A DNA stretch of 6,233 nucleotides, taken from the NCBI GenBank assembly GCA_039804165.1, contig JBDRZZ010000043.1:1-6233 (forward strand), in the 5' to 3' direction. The notes under the pieces were generated by a model. That model had not been told where the DNA came from and did no database searches. It was given only the letters and a program-made list of their open reading frames with translations. Shown one piece after another: positions 3-6,201 of this stretch. A program made the position numbers and the translations under genes. The number at the start of each line of letters is the position of its first letter. The stretch's first letter is position 1. The stretch comes from a candidate division WOR-3 bacterium. Lineage in GTDB: Bacteria; Hydrothermota; UBA3072.

Positions 3-1025
3 TTAATATTATATTTACTTATGCTTTTAAGTGCCACAGATATTAACGAGGAAGTAGTTTGGAAGTATAGAATGTTTGATTGGAGGTTTTTTTATAATAG
101 AATTTATAGAATTCCTAGTGTAGTTTCACCAAGATGGGAGAATACTTTAAGGGTAACACCCTGGGGAGAAGTGTATTTTCTCCCAGATAGTGAGGAAGAC
201 ACCATAAAGTTTTATATCATTGATGAAAAAGGAAATAAAAAAAGAGAAGGTGTTTTAAATGTTGATGTTATTGATTATTTGGGATTACATCCACCGTTCC
301 GTCATCTAGAAGGAGAGAAGCAAGAAGATATACCTGATAAATTAAAGGCTTCCTTGAGAGATATATTAAAATTGGGGTGTGCTGGATATGTTTTCATCCT
401 TGATCTTTGTGTAAGCCATAAAAAGGATTTTTTTATTTTATTCAGATATAGTGCTTCTTCTGATCTATATTATTGTCTTCTAAAATATGACTCACTTGGA
501 AATTTAAAAGAAATCTGGGCGACCGAGGAGGACCAAAAAGCTTTTTTGAAAAAGGAGAATGTAGCAATAAAGACTATTCCAAGACCCGGAGCTCGTATAT
601 ACACCAATAAAGAAGGTGTTTTCCTTAAGTATGGCAAAGAAATATTTTTGCACTACGATTACAATGGGAATTATCTTGGAGAAGTTAAAGAGCCTGAGGG
701 AATAGTTGAAGAAAGGATAAGGATGCCTGATGGAAGGGAGAAGATAATCTGGAGCGAAAAACCTATTAGGATTTTTGGTGAGTATTATACTTTTAAGAAA
801 GAAGGTAATAAATATAAAGTTAAATTAGATAATAAGGAATATTATTTACCTGAGGGTTTAGACATAGGAGAGTTAAAAGGAGAGTTACGGTTCAATAAGA
901 AAAATCAGACACTTGAGTTGTGGAAATTAGAGTATCGAGGAGAGCCAGATAGTCTTGGTTACAGAGACCTTTGTATAATAAGAAGTGACATAAAATTGGA
1001 GCCAGTCGACACTAAAAAAAACTAA
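3..1025 (+). CDS. Secreted beta-propeller-like protein, 5' end cut by the window edge
   Basis: The frame is open from the first base. The first ATG is at 21, but the codons before it already read LILYLL and run into MLLSATD. This is the hydrophobic core and cleavage region of a Sec signal peptide, so the true start lies upstream of the window and ATG 21 is probably internal. The mature part (at least about 325 residues) contains repeated strand-turn units typical of six-bladed/NHL-like propellers: a W-G-E-V-Y-F-L strand followed by 'IIDEKGNKK', then 'LLKYDSLGNLKEIW', then 'IFLHYDYNGNYLGEV'. No catalytic motif is visible, and the likely role is an extracytoplasmic binding or scaffold protein. 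It ends in VDTKKN, whose codons form an A8 run just before TAA. The same ending occurs in the complete propeller gene at 3230. The frameshifted peptidase gene follows closely on the same strand. The propeller assignment is from pattern only and the exact family is unknown. Confidence 0.75.
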   Translation, partial: LILYLLMLLSATDINEEVVWKYRMFDWRFFYNRIYRIPSVVSPRWENTLRVTPWGEVYFLPDSEEDTIKFYIIDEKGNKKREGVLNVDVIDYLGLHPPFRHLEGEKQEDIPDKLKASLRDILKLGCAGYVFILDLCVSHKKDFFILFRYSASSDLYYCLLKYDSLGNLKEIWATEEDQKAFLKKENVAIKTIPRPGARIYTNKEGVFLKYGKEIFLHYDYNGNYLGEVKEPEGIVEERIRMPDGREKIIWSEKPIRIFGEYYTFKKEGNKYKVKLDNKEYYLPEGLDIGELKGELRFNKKNQTLELWKLEYRGEPDSLGYRDLCIIRSDIKLEPVDTKKN

Positions 1026-1075
1026 ACATCTGGGGGAGGATAAGGGAATTCTTTGTTAGGGTTTTTAAATCTTAG
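1011..1075 (+). repeat. Gene-end repeat, copy 1 (partner at 4379-4443)
   Basis: This 65-base stretch aligns without gaps to 4379-4443 with 53 of 65 identical bases. The first 37 bases differ at only two positions. It covers the last codons of the propeller gene, its TAA stop and 50 bases beyond. The propeller sequences just upstream are much more diverged, so conservation starts sharply at the A8 run. The pair marks the duplicated cassette and carries the candidate recoding signal listed separately. Confidence 0.85.
1013..1075 (+). other. Candidate -1 recoding site with 17-codon tail, copy 1
   Basis: The propeller frame reads ACT AAA AAA AAC TAA, so the run of eight A contains A AAA AAC in the phase of a classical -1 slippery heptamer immediately before the stop. 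After a -1 shift the next codon is CTA at 1022 and translation would add LNIWGRIREFFVRVFKS before TAG at 1073-1075. The tail is basic and aromatic, perhaps an amphipathic helix. No upstream SD-like stimulator is evident and I did not find a strong downstream stem. A run of eight A could also allow RNA polymerase slippage, or its length could be mis-sequenced. Support comes from the equivalent tail after the second propeller gene. Confidence 0.5.
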
Positions 1076-1101: not shown

Positions 1102-2778
1102 ATGAACTCAAAAAACTCAACAGACCCGATAAACTCAATGAACTTTACTAAACCCGATTCGGCAAGAATTAAGTATAGATTGGAGCCTCCTGAATACGCA
1201 AACCCTGATATTTCTCCTAAACCAATAAGGATGAAGGTGGAAATCAAGGATAAGGATGGGGTTACAGTCTACGGCCCAAGGGATTTAACTGTTGAAGAAC
1301 AGAGGAACCAATTATTATGGTGGAATGGAATTGATAATAAGGGGGATACATTGGACCCTGAGAGAGGTCCTTTCAAAGGAGAGATAAAATTGAAATATAA
1401 AGAAGAAATACAGACCACAACAAGTTCCCTGGCAGCTGCTTCTGCGAAGACCAAAGGAGGTGAAGTAACTGCGGAATTTCTTTCGAGTTTAATTGCTGTA
1501 AAGGTTAATAATATTAAGCCATCTTATAAGAAGATTGTGGCTGTGAGAGGTGGAGAAAATGATAAATTGAGTTTCGATTATGAAATAAAACCCAGTTGGT
1601 TTACATTTGATAGTAAGAAGTTTTTGATATATGGTAAAGACGGATTATTTGATAATCCAATATATACAGAAGAGTTAACTTCTAATAGTGGTTCTTTTAA
1701 GTGGGATGGTAAATGTGATGCTTCTTTTGGAAAAAATGAATCTGGCCATTATGCTGACCCAAGGGAGAATCCTTTCAGTGTTTATTGTGAATTAAAATTT
1801 GAGGGAGAAGGTAAAGAATATACATTTTGTGAACATTTAATGGATGTGAATGTAGTTCCTCAAATTATGAAGGTTTTTGGGACCCATACTCCTTTTTCTC
1901 CTACTGCTTCTTGTGATGAGGATAATCCTCTTACATTGACACACAGATGTGTAGTAAAAGGGAAGATAGACAATAGTGGAGTGGAGCAAGAAGATATTTT
2001 ATATTATACTGGGGATGGAGAGCCAATCAGGATTTGGAGATGTAGGAATGATAATTCATATCATGCCAACAATGGGACTCAGGTTTATGATTACCAAAAT
2101 AGGAGAAGTTACTGGATTGAGCTGTATAATGAATATGAAATTGATCCAGAAATATGGGATCAAGAAAATTTAGGAGAACTTAACTGTATATGGACGCAGG
2201 AATCTGGACCTACACCGGAAGTAGTTCCTCAGGGTTTAGTAAGTGCGAACACATACAGTAATCCAGGAACATATCGTTATAATATCAGAGTTACTAATTT
2301 AGCGGAAGGTCAGACTATCCAGAATATGGAGTCGCATCCCGGAGAAGTAAAAAGTAGACCTACGAATTATAACCAGGTTAGCTGTGATAGTATAGAATGT
2401 ATCAGAGATTGTTATATGGTTCATTTAAAAGGGGTAGAGAATGACGCTTATGCGTGGGCACAATCTTTTATAGGAGTGCCTTATGCTGAATATATTGATA
2501 ATCCGAATCCACTTCCAAATCGTTTATACCCAACAGATTATCATTACAATGATTGTTCAGGGTTGATACATGCTGCTGAATGGTTAAATGGATGGAGGAA
2601 TTATCGTCAGGATGCTCATGGATATGTTACTTTAACGAGTTATTCATCCTCCAATGGGGGTGTGGACCCTGAAAACAATGTAAATGCCCGGAGGAATGAT
2701 TGGGCAGGGATTGATCCAAAGATAGATAAAGATGGTGATGGGGCGATTGGAAGAAGACCCTATTGGGGATTCAAATAA
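1102..2778 (+). CDS. FlgD-Ig-like module plus first half of NlpC/P60-type cysteine peptidase (N-terminal part of a frameshifted gene)
   Basis: Residues about 17-100 form an FlgD-Ig-like beta-sandwich: 'RMKVEIKDKDG', then 'LLWWNGIDNKGDT', then 'GPFKGEIKLKY'. A second, diverged unit of the same type lies around residues 155-245 (IYGKDG, FKWDGK, NPFSVYCELKF). A PKD-like stretch with the motif TYSNPGTYRYNIRV follows. From residue 448 an NlpC/P60 front half appears: AWAQSFIGVPY, then DCSGL with Cys485 as the predicted nucleophile. The catalytic His block is missing from this frame. After DKDGDGAIG (542-550) the reading turns into an unrelated eight-residue end. Continuing one base on from about 2752 restores 'GEDPIGDSNNDG' and the rest of the domain in 2732-3205, for an intact product of about 700 residues. 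Eleven cysteines and calcium-type loops suggest an extracytoplasmic protein, yet there is no signal peptide. No SD precedes ATG 1102, so the start is doubtful. The family predicts cleavage of peptidoglycan peptides or other amide bonds; the substrate is unknown. Confidence 0.7.
   Translation: MNSKNSTDPINSMNFTKPDSARIKYRLEPPEYANPDISPKPIRMKVEIKDKDGVTVYGPRDLTVEEQRNQLLWWNGIDNKGDTLDPERGPFKGEIKLKYKEEIQTTTSSLAAASAKTKGGEVTAEFLSSLIAVKVNNIKPSYKKIVAVRGGENDKLSFDYEIKPSWFTFDSKKFLIYGKDGLFDNPIYTEELTSNSGSFKWDGKCDASFGKNESGHYADPRENPFSVYCELKFEGEGKEYTFCEHLMDVNVVPQIMKVFGTHTPFSPTASCDEDNPLTLTHRCVVKGKIDNSGVEQEDILYYTGDGEPIRIWRCRNDNSYHANNGTQVYDYQNRRSYWIELYNEYEIDPEIWDQENLGELNCIWTQESGPTPEVVPQGLVSANTYSNPGTYRYNIRVTNLAEGQTIQNMESHPGEVKSRPTNYNQVSCDSIECIRDCYMVHLKGVENDAYAWAQSFIGVPYAEYIDNPNPLPNRLYPTDYHYNDCSGLIHAAEWLNGWRNYRQDAHGYVTLTSYSSSNGGVDPENNVNARRNDWAGIDPKIDKDGDGAIGRRPYWGFK
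1150..1349 (+). repeat. Duplicated FlgD-Ig-like module, copy 1 (partner at 4790-4989)
   Basis: These 200 bases align ungapped with 4790-4989, with 17 mismatches counted by eye (about 91 % identity). Most mismatches are synonymous in the shared frame. The amino acid changes are limited to E/D, VT/NL and N/K. Flanking sequence on both sides diverges quickly and leads to different peptidase domains. The repeat is therefore a conserved protein module under purifying selection, or recently copied, rather than a non-coding element. Confidence 0.9.
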
Positions 2779-3205
2779 TGACGGATTTCCTGGAGTGAGG
2801 GGAGTAGATGATGATGGAGATGGATTAATAGATGAAGATTCAAGGGGTAGACAACCTGGTGAATCTGGATATACAAACGACCTTGCGGAAGATGATGACG
2901 AAGATGGTTATTACGATATTAATCAGGGGAAGATTATCAGGCTTAATGAGGATCCTGGTAGATGGGACCATATTATAATGATAAGGGATTATAGGTGGAT
3001 TGATTGGCATGATCCTCTGTATGCACAGTTTGAACAAACGTTAGGGCATGCTTATAATTTCATTCATGCTTGTCCTGACCCTGGTTGGACCACAGAAGTG
3101 TTCTATAATCTCCTTGATTATAGACCCAGATATCCAATTGTACACACTCAATTTAATCAAACTGGTCGTATTTATAGAACAGAATTCAGACAACCAAATA
3201 GGTAA
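2732..3205 (+). CDS. C-terminal half of the NlpC/P60-type cysteine peptidase with calcium-loop insert (continuation of the gene at 1102)
   Basis: This frame overlaps the end of the preceding one and is best read as its continuation from about 2753, not as an independent gene. The ATGs at 2732 and 2738 have no SD, and the protein starts in the middle of a domain. It opens with acidic calcium-type loops: DSNNDG at 13-18, DDDGDGLIDED around 26-36 and DDDEDGYYD at 54-62. These follow on from DKDGDG in the upstream half, resembling EF-hand or thrombospondin-type-3 loops. Then come 'RWDHIIMIRD' with His80, the likely catalytic His block (HVGIY-like in the family), and 'YNFIHACPDPG' with His112, matching the family's FIHAS segment. 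Together with Cys485 of the upstream half this completes an NlpC/P60 layout, with an acidic insert between Cys and His. The next gene starts 24 bases after the stop. The domain call is by motif and fairly confident; the substrate is unknown. Confidence 0.68.
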   Translation: MVMGRLEEDPIGDSNNDGFPGVRGVDDDGDGLIDEDSRGRQPGESGYTNDLAEDDDEDGYYDINQGKIIRLNEDPGRWDHIIMIRDYRWIDWHDPLYAQFEQTLGHAYNFIHACPDPGWTTEVFYNLLDYRPRYPIVHTQFNQTGRIYRTEFRQPNR

Positions 3206-3229: not shown

Positions 3230-4393
3230 ATGAAAAAGTTTTTAATTTTAATGTTAATGATAATCACTTGCTTTGTTAGTGCAGAGGAATATGTAGATAA
3301 AGTTGAATTATTTATTCCTTATGGAGATGCAGATAGTCTTTTAGGATATAAACCTCCTTATTATGAGATAAAAGAGAATGGTGATACAGGACATATTGAG
3401 CTTGGTCGGGCAGCAACAGCCTGGGATATTCAGAATGATAAAATTTATGTTGCCGATGGAGTAAAAAGTAAGATATTGGTTTATTCTTTGGCTGGGAAAT
3501 ATTTGCGTTCAATTGGGTTATGGAAGGAAGAAACCGATGAAATAAAAATAAAGACTTCTGCAGGGGAAACTCTTACTTTAAAAGCCCGGGAATTGAGAGA
3601 ATGGGATCCTAACCAAAAGAAATTTGTAGTGTCTCAGGGAAATAAATATTATTACGAGAAAATAGGTCTTATTGCGGTTGATGGTTCTGGAAATATCTAT
3701 GCGATTACTGATGTAAGTTTAAAAAATAGAGGTGTAATGAAATTTTCTCCTGATGGTAAGTTATTAGGAATAATAAATAAATTTGGACAGTATGGACCTG
3801 ATGATATTAAGACTTTAGGTTTTCAAGTGCGTTCTGATATTTATGGGGATATAATTGTGGGTATGCTATTAGAAAAAGGAGGTCAAGTTTTTGCTAAGTT
3901 TGATAGAAGTGGCAACTTTATGTGGGTAAAAGAACGAGCTTATCCTAGAGATAAGGAAGGCTATCTTTATAATATGCTCCCAGATGGTAAAGGCCCTTCA
4001 GCACCAGACACCTCAGTTATTGTTTCAAAGATGAATTCACAAGAAGTAGAAATCAAAAAGATTAAAATCTATTTTGAGCCTCCTTCTTCAAGAGGAGTAG
4101 GATTTAGTGGTGTTGATGGTAAAGGTAATCTTTTCTTAAGTTTAGAGCCAATGTATCGCAAATATGACCAAAATGGAAATTTATTAGCAAAGATTTCATG
4201 TTCCTCGATCGTTTTCGAGAAAGGTTTAGCAGATGTTGAATCTATCCCCCTAACTAAATTTATGGCAGATGGAAGCTTTTACATTGGTTATAATTTAAGA
4301 GATGGTTTTCATCTAATTAAATACTACATCAAACCCGGAACCGAAGGAAAAATCCTCGAACCAGCAGTCACCCCCAACACTAAAAAAAACTAA
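3230..4393 (+). CDS. Secreted six-bladed/NHL-like beta-propeller protein
   Basis: This is a complete gene of 387 codons with a strong SD. The N-terminus MKKFLILMLMIITCFVSA is a textbook Sec signal peptide with predicted cleavage before EEYVDK. The mature protein shows about five or six propeller blades: 'IQNDKIYVADGVKSKILVYS' with GKYLRSIG; 'VDGSGNIYAITD' with FSPDGKLLGII; 'YGDIIVG' with FDRSGNFMWV; 'VDGKGNLFLS' with YDQNGNLLAKI; and 'ADGSFYIGY' with FHLIKYYI. The [D/N]GxGN-Y turn followed by [Y/F]DxxGN is typical of NHL/6-bladed propellers. No catalytic motif was seen, so binding or scaffolding outside the cytoplasm is the likely role. It ends TPNTKKN at an A8 run, with a conserved tail in the -1 frame. 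The propeller at 3-1025 is a distant paralogue with the same position relative to a peptidase gene. Confidence 0.85.
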   Translation: MKKFLILMLMIITCFVSAEEYVDKVELFIPYGDADSLLGYKPPYYEIKENGDTGHIELGRAATAWDIQNDKIYVADGVKSKILVYSLAGKYLRSIGLWKEETDEIKIKTSAGETLTLKARELREWDPNQKKFVVSQGNKYYYEKIGLIAVDGSGNIYAITDVSLKNRGVMKFSPDGKLLGIINKFGQYGPDDIKTLGFQVRSDIYGDIIVGMLLEKGGQVFAKFDRSGNFMWVKERAYPRDKEGYLYNMLPDGKGPSAPDTSVIVSKMNSQEVEIKKIKIYFEPPSSRGVGFSGVDGKGNLFLSLEPMYRKYDQNGNLLAKISCSSIVFEKGLADVESIPLTKFMADGSFYIGYNLRDGFHLIKYYIKPGTEGKILEPAVTPNTKKN

Positions 4394-4443
4394 ATATCTG
4401 GGGTAGGATAAGGGAGGTTTGGATTAGAGTATTTAAAACTTAA
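4379..4443 (+). repeat. Gene-end repeat, copy 2 (partner at 1011-1075)
   Basis: This is the second copy of the 65-base repeat at the 3' end of a propeller gene. It is ungapped against copy 1, and its first 37 bases are nearly identical. After about 4443 similarity fades. Its position relative to the propeller stop is the same in both cassettes. Confidence 0.85.
4381..4443 (+). other. Candidate -1 recoding site with 17-codon tail, copy 2
   Basis: The propeller frame again reads ACT AAA AAA AAC TAA. A -1 shift leads through CTA at 4390 into LNIWGRIREVWIRVFKT and stops at TAA 4441-4443. Compared with copy 1, 13 of 17 tail residues are identical and the others are V/F, W/F, I/V and T/S. Eight of the twelve base differences are at third positions of this -1 frame. 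That is the pattern of a translated sequence. The shifting mechanism is not demonstrated. Confidence 0.5.
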
Positions 4444-4546
4444 TTAAAATTTTGTTCCTAAGAGACTCCTGAAGTCTAGATATTCTGAAACCTTTTTCCT
4501 CCTTGCCCCTTCGGAGAATTCGATATATTATAAGGGTGAGACTAAA
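4394..4546 (+). other. Leader between propeller and module gene, partly coding-like
   Basis: After the recoding tail ends at 4443, the frame of the next gene is open from 4448 to its ATG at 4547 with no ATG, GTG or TTG. It reads in part 'RYSETFFLLAPSENSIYYKG' directly into MNSDEIP, which looks like protein. A pyrimidine-rich tract lies at 4491-4511. No convincing promoter or terminator was found. The stretch may be the remnant of a longer N-terminus of the downstream gene. Confidence 0.4.
4534..4540 (+). promoter_or_regulatory. Possible ribosome binding site GGGTGAG for ATG 4547
   Basis: GGTGA can pair with the 16S rRNA 3' end and lies seven bases before ATG 4547. It is weaker than the GGAGGA at 3221 but supports this ATG as a usable start. 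The reading frame is also open further upstream. Confidence 0.45.
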
Positions 4547-5812
4547 ATGAATAGTGATGAGATACCAGTTCGTGTTCAATATGATATAACCTATGAGTGT
4601 AGAGGTGTTCTTTCCACAGAAACGAGGATAGAAGATTATAAGTTAAATGCCTTTGATTATTCTCCTAATAAGCATTATCTTTATGCTTCTGGGACAGGCT
4701 TGGAAGGGGAGAAAAGAGATTCCATACCTATATGGGTGATTAGTTTTGAGATAGATGAGGAGAATGTTACCAAGTATTTTAACCCTTATAAACCTGATTC
4801 TGCAAGGATTAAGTATAGATTGGAGCCTCCTGATTACGCCAACCCTGACATTTCTCCTAAACCAATAAGGATGAAGGTGGAAATAAAAGATAAGGATGGA
4901 AACTTAGTCTACGGTCCAAGGGATTTAACTGTTGAAGAGCAGAGGAACCAATTATTATGGTGGAAGGGAATTGATAATAAGGGGGATACTGTGAAGGTGG
5001 AAAAGGGTCCATTTAAGGTGGAGTTGACTCTTAAATACAAAGAGGATAAAGAAGTTAAGGATAGTGTAGATATAGGTATTGTTTATGTAGATCTTGTTGT
5101 ATTTAACCTACGAAACGGCCCCCCTGTTTCAGAGAAGAACGAGAGAATACAAGATTCTTCAGCAATCACATTGGTAAATGAAGATGATGACGGATTACCA
5201 AAAGGTGCAGATATGAAAAATGAGGTAATAGATGAGGGTGGGGATACTTTAGATATGGTAAAACTGAGATTAAAATGTGAACTTCCAGAGACATTTGTAG
5301 ATGGGACAATTGAATTTGTCGAGAAGAAAGTAAATAGAATAGGAGAAGAAGTTCTTAAAGATACGGCAGTAGTAAGGATATTCGACGAAAAGGACGAAGT
5401 AATATTCAATGATAGTAAGGAGCAAATTGAATTAAAAGAGATACTTAATAAGTCTCGTTTTGTAAATGATTCAATAGATTTCTGGGTAGAAGGGGTAAGA
5501 CACGGTTGTATTGAATTTATGTTAAATTTGAGGGACGAAAATGGGGAGATGCTTGGTTCGGATACCGTATCTGTGATGGCTTTCAAAGAAATGGGGATTG
5601 AATATAGGTATATGAAGGATCAGAATAACAATTATGATTGTCTTCTTAAAGGGAGAGATTCCTTGGAGAATGCTTTTAAGAAAGGTTATGTTATCCCGAA
5701 GATAACTTATGGAGATAGTATAATTCCAGCGAAGTATCCAAAATTGTGGGATAAGTTAATGAGGGACATTACAGACGTTATTCCCAGTCTGCTTCTGTGC
5801 CCTGGTATTTAG
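4547..5812 (+). CDS. FlgD-Ig-like module protein, N-terminal part of a frameshifted metallopeptidase gene
   Basis: The frame has 421 codons from an ATG with a weak SD. There is no signal peptide. Residues 1-81 form a beta-rich region that the first cassette lacks. Residues 82-148 are the shared FlgD-Ig-like module ('RMKVEIKDKDG', 'LLWWKGIDNKGDT', 'GPFKVELTLKY'). Next comes an acidic linker (VNEDDDGLPKGAD) and a second beta domain around 225-345 containing 'IDFWVEGVRHGCIEF' and SDTVSV. I recall this architecture from large exported proteins. The frame ends DITDVIPSLLLCPGI. One extra C in the CCC at 5783-5785 would instead give DVIPQSASVPWYLE and run into the zinc peptidase at 5797-6201, a product of about 551 residues from this ATG. 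I therefore read it as the front of a split peptidase gene parallel to the one at 1102. Its role beyond surface localisation or binding is unknown. Confidence 0.7.
   Translation: MNSDEIPVRVQYDITYECRGVLSTETRIEDYKLNAFDYSPNKHYLYASGTGLEGEKRDSIPIWVISFEIDEENVTKYFNPYKPDSARIKYRLEPPDYANPDISPKPIRMKVEIKDKDGNLVYGPRDLTVEEQRNQLLWWKGIDNKGDTVKVEKGPFKVELTLKYKEDKEVKDSVDIGIVYVDLVVFNLRNGPPVSEKNERIQDSSAITLVNEDDDGLPKGADMKNEVIDEGGDTLDMVKLRLKCELPETFVDGTIEFVEKKVNRIGEEVLKDTAVVRIFDEKDEVIFNDSKEQIELKEILNKSRFVNDSIDFWVEGVRHGCIEFMLNLRDENGEMLGSDTVSVMAFKEMGIEYRYMKDQNNNYDCLLKGRDSLENAFKKGYVIPKITYGDSIIPAKYPKLWDKLMRDITDVIPSLLLCPGI
4790..4989 (+). repeat. Duplicated FlgD-Ig-like module, copy 2 (partner at 1150-1349)
   Basis: This is the second copy of the 200-base conserved segment (about 91 % identity, ungapped). 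Similarity begins at the codons for KPDSARIKYR and ends around KGDT, after which only short motifs such as GPFK and LKYKE remain alike. It joins a different C-terminal enzyme than copy 1. Confidence 0.9.
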
Positions 5813-6201
5813 AGGCAGGGATGGAGGCGGAAGAAGGGGCTAAGTGGGCAGAAGGAGATAAAGGAGAGAAGTTTTATGGGTATACTTACTTTGTGCAAGG
5901 GCCCTATTATTCATTTTCCCTTGTTTTTATGAAAAAGTTAAAAGAATTATCTATTACAAATCCCTGGACTGCTATCAAGATGGCTACAATTCACGAATTA
6001 GGGCATCAATATGCACATCTTACGGATAAGTATAAAGAAGTAAATAAGAAAAAACATGTGCTTAAAGGTTGTTGTGTGATGGATAAACTAGAAATTGAAA
6101 ATAATGAGGTTATAGACTGTAAAAATTTCTGTGATTCCTGTGTGATTCATTTAAAGAACAAATACTGGGATTATGATGCAAATAGACCGCCTCAGAATTA
6201 A
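5797..6201 (+). CDS. Zinc metallopeptidase domain with HExxH and archaemetzincin-like Cys cluster (C-terminal part of the frameshifted gene at 4547)
   Basis: The frame has 134 codons from a GTG that overlaps the preceding frame by 16 bases. No SD supports the GTG, and the upstream codons (QSASVPWYLE) continue the preceding protein, so it is probably the frameshifted C-terminal half rather than a separate gene. Residues 66-77 read HELGHQYAHLTD: His66 and His70 as zinc ligands, Glu67 as catalytic base. The third ligand is not at the metzincin position, where Thr76 stands; Asp77, His74 or His87 are candidates. Further on, C92-C93-V-M95 resembles the CxM Met-turn, and C112-D-S-C115 follows 16 residues after Met95. 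This is close to the archaemetzincin signature (HExxHxxGxxHC, CxM, about 17 residues, CxxC), with a longer loop before the Met-turn. The domain is probably extracytoplasmic and would cleave proteins or peptides; the substrate is unknown. The zincin call is confident, the archaemetzincin relation moderate. Confidence 0.72.
   Translation: MPWYLEAGMEAEEGAKWAEGDKGEKFYGYTYFVQGPYYSFSLVFMKKLKELSITNPWTAIKMATIHELGHQYAHLTDKYKEVNKKKHVLKGCCVMDKLEIENNEVIDCKNFCDSCVIHLKNKYWDYDANRPPQN

Follow-up and report, generated by a model that had tools for sequence, protein, structure and literature searches.

In this report, we describe two genes without significant overall similarity that end in the same 69-bp stretch, in which eight As and a C run directly into the stop codon, and in which a 17-residue tail follows in the -1 frame. 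The arrangement is present twice, and the tail is conserved as protein in the -1 frame only. The pattern of substitutions makes it very probable that the tail was translated while the copies diverged. As for the present, our first choice, to which we assign a probability of roughly 0.4, is that low-level -1 ribosomal slippage on A AAA AAC yields a tailed form of both proteins.

A common 3' end in two dissimilar genes

The window, meaning the whole stretch of DNA that was analyzed, is one entire contig of 6,233 bases, taken from a 1.95-Mb assembly of 49 contigs with 34% GC. All of its genes lie on the + strand, in the order gene 1 (21-1025), a first effector-type gene (1102-3205), gene 2 (3230-4393) and a second effector-type gene (4547-6201). 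Gene 1, whose start may lie 5' of the contig end, finishes with ...DTKKN TAA, while gene 2, a 387-codon frame with a signal-peptide-like N-terminus, finishes with ...PNTKKN TAA. BLASTP matches between the two are short and marginal (best E = 0.010 over 21 residues). A sequence-only reading had taken gene 1 for a propeller protein, a term that a match to the propeller profile PF17170 weakly favors for gene 2 (E = 0.011, below the cut-off). Gene 1, in contrast, has no Pfam or NCBIfam match; it is beta-rich, and its single-sequence structure model is of low confidence and made mostly of strands. For both genes, the structure models are too poor to name a fold.

The 3' end of gene 1 reads GAC ACT AAA AAA AAC TAA, with a run of exactly eight As at 1014-1021. 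The 0 frame is shut by the TAA at 1023-1025 and the -1 frame by a TAA at 1013-1015; a frame change is therefore possible only inside AAAAAAAAC (A8C). Within this box (1013-1025), a heptamer of the X XXY YYZ type, A AAA AAC, stands in the 0 frame of the overlap at 1016-1022. Tail 1 (1022-1075) opens in the -1 frame with CTA AAC ATC TGG and codes for 17 residues, LNIWGRIREFFVRVFKS, before a TAG at 1073-1075. That a slippery heptamer directly precedes the stop and that a -1 tail continues to the TAG had been noticed in the earlier reading, and both points stand on direct inspection, reinforced by the second copy: ACT AAA AAA AAC TAA and its -1 tail, at 1011-1075, recur at 4379-4443. The second box (4381-4393) has a layout identical to the first, with the A run at 4382-4389, the heptamer in the same frame of the overlap at 4384-4390 and the TAA at 4391-4393, and leads into tail 2 (4390-4443; LNIWGRIREVWIRVFKT), which is closed by a TAA at 4441-4443. 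The copies, taken as 1009-1077 and 4377-4445, are 82.6% identical over 69 bp, and BLAST similarity stops about at the tail stop.

In-frame A AAA AAC heptamers are frequent in this genome (163 in about 1,500 predicted ORFs), but only 4 of the 163 lie immediately 5' of a stop codon, and 3 of these 4 are the tail copies. The third copy is found at position 394 of another contig of the same assembly (C16), which begins with it: the first 420 bases of C16 correspond to window positions 622-1041 at 96.2% identity. It retains A8C-TAA, with a tail shortened to LNIWGRMF. The run is eight As long in each of the three copies of this single assembly, and A8C-TAA is identical throughout, against a divergence of 22% of sites between the two full tails. 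A subtilase fragment (PF00082; 440-763 of the C16 locus L001) lies directly behind the broken third tail.

Conservation of the tail as protein

Tails 1 and 2 differ at 11 sites in 51 nt, and 13 of their 17 residues are kept in the -1 frame. With the stop codon included, the count rises to 12 differences in 54 bases. Eight of the 12 occupy the third codon position of the -1 frame (binomial P = 0.019), and when the same number of changes is placed at random, 14 of 18 positions (stop counted) survive in less than 0.5% of trials. In a permutation test, the actual changes were redistributed at random over sites that carry the same base and scored against the observed protein similarity. Across the two full copies, both from one genome, it gave P = 0.0003 (0.03% of trials) for the -1 frame, and 0.43 to 0.90 for the other five frames.

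As read from the sequence, the tail contains no ATG, GTG or TTG. Since it has no usual start codon and both frames are closed on either side of A8C, reading from the upstream gene is the simplest way to translate it. Protein conservation restricted to the -1 frame, the absence of a start codon and the TAA upstream of the A run together argue that the upstream protein carried the tail during the divergence of the copies. Such conservation requires past translation only, and is compatible with a run of either eight or nine As at that time.

Distribution of the tail and of the genes that carry it

Outside the three places, no further tail copy beyond chance was revealed when about 90% of the genome was examined as stretches, when the window's own assembly was searched as a whole genome, or in viral contigs. 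Six tail-pattern matches in genome contigs had unrelated flanks and were dismissed. The sequence-only reading had proposed that the C-terminal motif be sought in related genomes; in the 147 phylum genomes searched, no match was better than weak (E 0.005-0.05), and none was convincing. The tail that it had called conserved is conserved between copies in one species, without a convincing counterpart in the phylum's other searched genomes. The ortholog of gene 2 in a related genome, G004 (L012), is 45% identical and has neither the A run nor the tail, so that the frameshift site is not seen to be conserved across genera; this points to either a gain of the tail in the window's lineage or a loss in that of G004. 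In G004, the ortholog lies directly 3' of an effector-type gene, and another such pair is present on its contig C41. Peptide-pattern searches of genome and viral contigs found no other relatives of gene 2, and gene 1 has none in 60 genomes but its own copy.

The surrounding locus

The two effector-type genes have in common a 201-bp repeat near their starts, in the Ig region (1149-1349 and 4789-4989, 91.5% identical), and both are without the N-terminal part of the G004 homolog on C41. They look like cassettes, in that their later parts differ (NlpC/P60-like in one, HELGH peptidase-like in the other), with the C-terminal domains exchanged. The first, FlgD-Ig-like and NlpC/P60-like, is split between two frames (1102-2778 and 2732-3205); we infer its NlpC/P60 identity from a DCSG motif and from a related protein in locus L146. 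Its break, near 2741-2760, is away from any homopolymer, at a place where the G004 homolog is open, and sits between the DCSG motif and a later WDH motif, possibly catalytic. The second is likewise read in two frames (4547-5812 and 5797-6201), the HELGH metallopeptidase-like stretch being in the other frame from about 5773; a second frame break is possible just 5' of it, at 5773-5812, although the treatment of this region as one gene has no homolog support. Fragments of the locus occur terminally on contigs C16 and C31. On C31 (15722-17158 of L042), a transposase-like ORF adjoins, at the contig end, a 175-bp piece of an Ig-type gene that is 95% identical to window positions 5025-5200.

Because the neighboring effector-type gene carries an ordinary frameshift, the locus may be decaying. 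Surroundings of this kind, cassette-like and partly in decay, make a regulated switch less credible.

Possible slippage today or possible loss of an A

The 69-bp stretch is a common 3' end that supplies both genes with an A8-C slip site, a normal stop and a basic aromatic -1 tail of 17 residues. If slippage takes place today, most ribosomes would terminate at the TAA and give the short form, while a minority would shift back by one base at A AAA AAC, perhaps helped by the stop codon; alternatively, RNA polymerase could add one A to the run of eight. The slipped product would end in ...KKN/K-LNIWGRIRE(FF/VW)(V/I)RVFK(S/T). The tails have a hydrophobic moment of 0.57-0.60 and a net charge of +3, marginally above shuffled sequences (P = 0.05-0.075), and could fold into a moderately amphipathic cationic helix; that it anchors some of the protein at a membrane or with a partner is a guess, and the switch and the export that the earlier reading proposed are conjectural.

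The heptamer is a proven -1 site in IS1, where it acts without an established stimulator (PMC4066793), and is a weak frameshift site in E. coli (PMC4066793, PMC5009743). At both sites, the run of eight falls short of the approximately nine As expected for poly-A transcriptional slippage, and RNA polymerase is reported not to slip on eight As (PMC1088944). Downstream of the two sites, no stable or shared RNA structure was detected (z -0.03 to -1.06). On balance we favor low-level ribosomal slippage, by a narrow margin over the loss of one A. No Shine-Dalgarno-like element was seen by eye just upstream of the slip site.

The length of the run is informative in this genome. Coding A/T runs drop from 430 of length 8 to 15 of length 9 (about 29-fold), and intergenic runs from 43 to 6 (about 7-fold), with a similar drop in small samples from relatives. 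Eight is thus a tolerated length in coding sequence here, and avoidance begins at nine, the length at which selection against long runs has been described in many bacteria (PMC1088944). The drop fits such selection more than miscounting.

Slippage is supported by the conservation of the tail as protein in the -1 frame only, by the loss of similarity about at the tail stop, by a site that is unchanged in three copies despite divergence of the tail, by the missing start codon and the closure of both frames around A8C, by runs of eight As that elsewhere lie mostly in intact ORFs, by a tolerated run length and by the IS1 precedent. It is opposed by the lack of RNA structure, a heptamer that performs poorly in E. 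coli, the tail-less ortholog, the lack of a convincing tail in the phylum's other searched genomes, the frameshift in the neighboring gene, the broken third tail and a conservation test with just two full copies. A stronger version, in which the stretch would be a portable recoding module that gives two dissimilar genes tailed and untailed forms in a set ratio, seems to us rather unlikely.

Only slightly less probable in our view is that the tail was in frame behind nine As during divergence, and that one A was then lost by replication slippage, either in each copy or once with subsequent gene conversion. This would have turned the tail off, for good in the case of decay or reversibly in that of A8/A9 phase variation. 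Past translation would suffice to explain the protein conservation, and coding runs of nine are avoided here, which would fit with runs of that length being unstable or slippery. The state of the locus is also in keeping with such a loss: the adjoining effector-type gene is frameshifted, both genes of this type are without the N-terminal part of their homolog, C16 and C31 carry terminal pieces of the locus, with a transposase-like ORF next to the C31 piece, and the C16 tail is deleted. However, the same run of eight is then demanded in three copies, and gene 2 is otherwise intact, with its long frame and its ortholog in G004.

Less likely readings: sequencing error or DNA repeat

It is improbable that the true run is nine (or six) As and the tail an ordinary in-frame end of both genes, misread by sequencing or assembly. 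The contig is short, its repeats are common to other contigs, and it contains at least one further frame break. Yet 52 runs of eight As fall within intact ORFs versus 2 at ORF junctions (383-kb sample plus the window), which indicates that As are not lost from this assembly as a rule. Moreover, among 124 genes aligned to proteins of related genomes (132.6 kb), 123 are unbroken, and the sole break is in the window's own effector-type gene. The three copies agree with one another, and the drop at nine is mainly in coding sequence and occurs in relatives too. Systematic undercalling of homopolymers is unsupported on these grounds. Finally, the stretch could be a repeat of non-coding DNA, for instance one that marks where cassettes recombine, whose -1 frame is open by chance. 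This would suit the position between cassette-like gene pairs and the other repeat that the downstream genes have in common, but the substitutions track the codons of the -1 frame, which makes this reading very improbable.

Comparison with known systems

If the tail is translated today, a bacterium would be using -1 frameshifting at the stop codon to extend two different proteins by one and the same short tail, no stimulator having been detected, and the case would show that real C-termini can lie hidden behind annotated stops in uncultured bacteria. If it is not, the locus is a well-marked instance in which an A run has cost two genes a conserved tail.

One close likeness is to IS1, a bacterial system with the same heptamer and the same -1 direction; there, the shift fuses two ORFs into a transposase, whereas here it would add 17 residues to genes unlinked to transposition. 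In tssM1 of Citrobacter rodentium, a stop also lies just 3' of an A run, and poly-A transcriptional slippage extends the C-terminus, both forms being needed (PMC4256274); that gene has 11 As and gains a C-terminal domain, compared with 8 As here. A -1 frameshift likewise extends the cytidine deaminase of Bacillus, but at A CGA AAG, and it was termed incidental; the part of PMC5009743 that deals with it describes no tail common to different genes. Pseudo-pseudogenes at runs of eight or nine As resemble our case in that frames break at A runs and are repairable by slippage (PMC1088944). In those genes, eight As are the normal state and nine the slippery mutant, while in the window it is the shorter run that leaves the tail out of frame.
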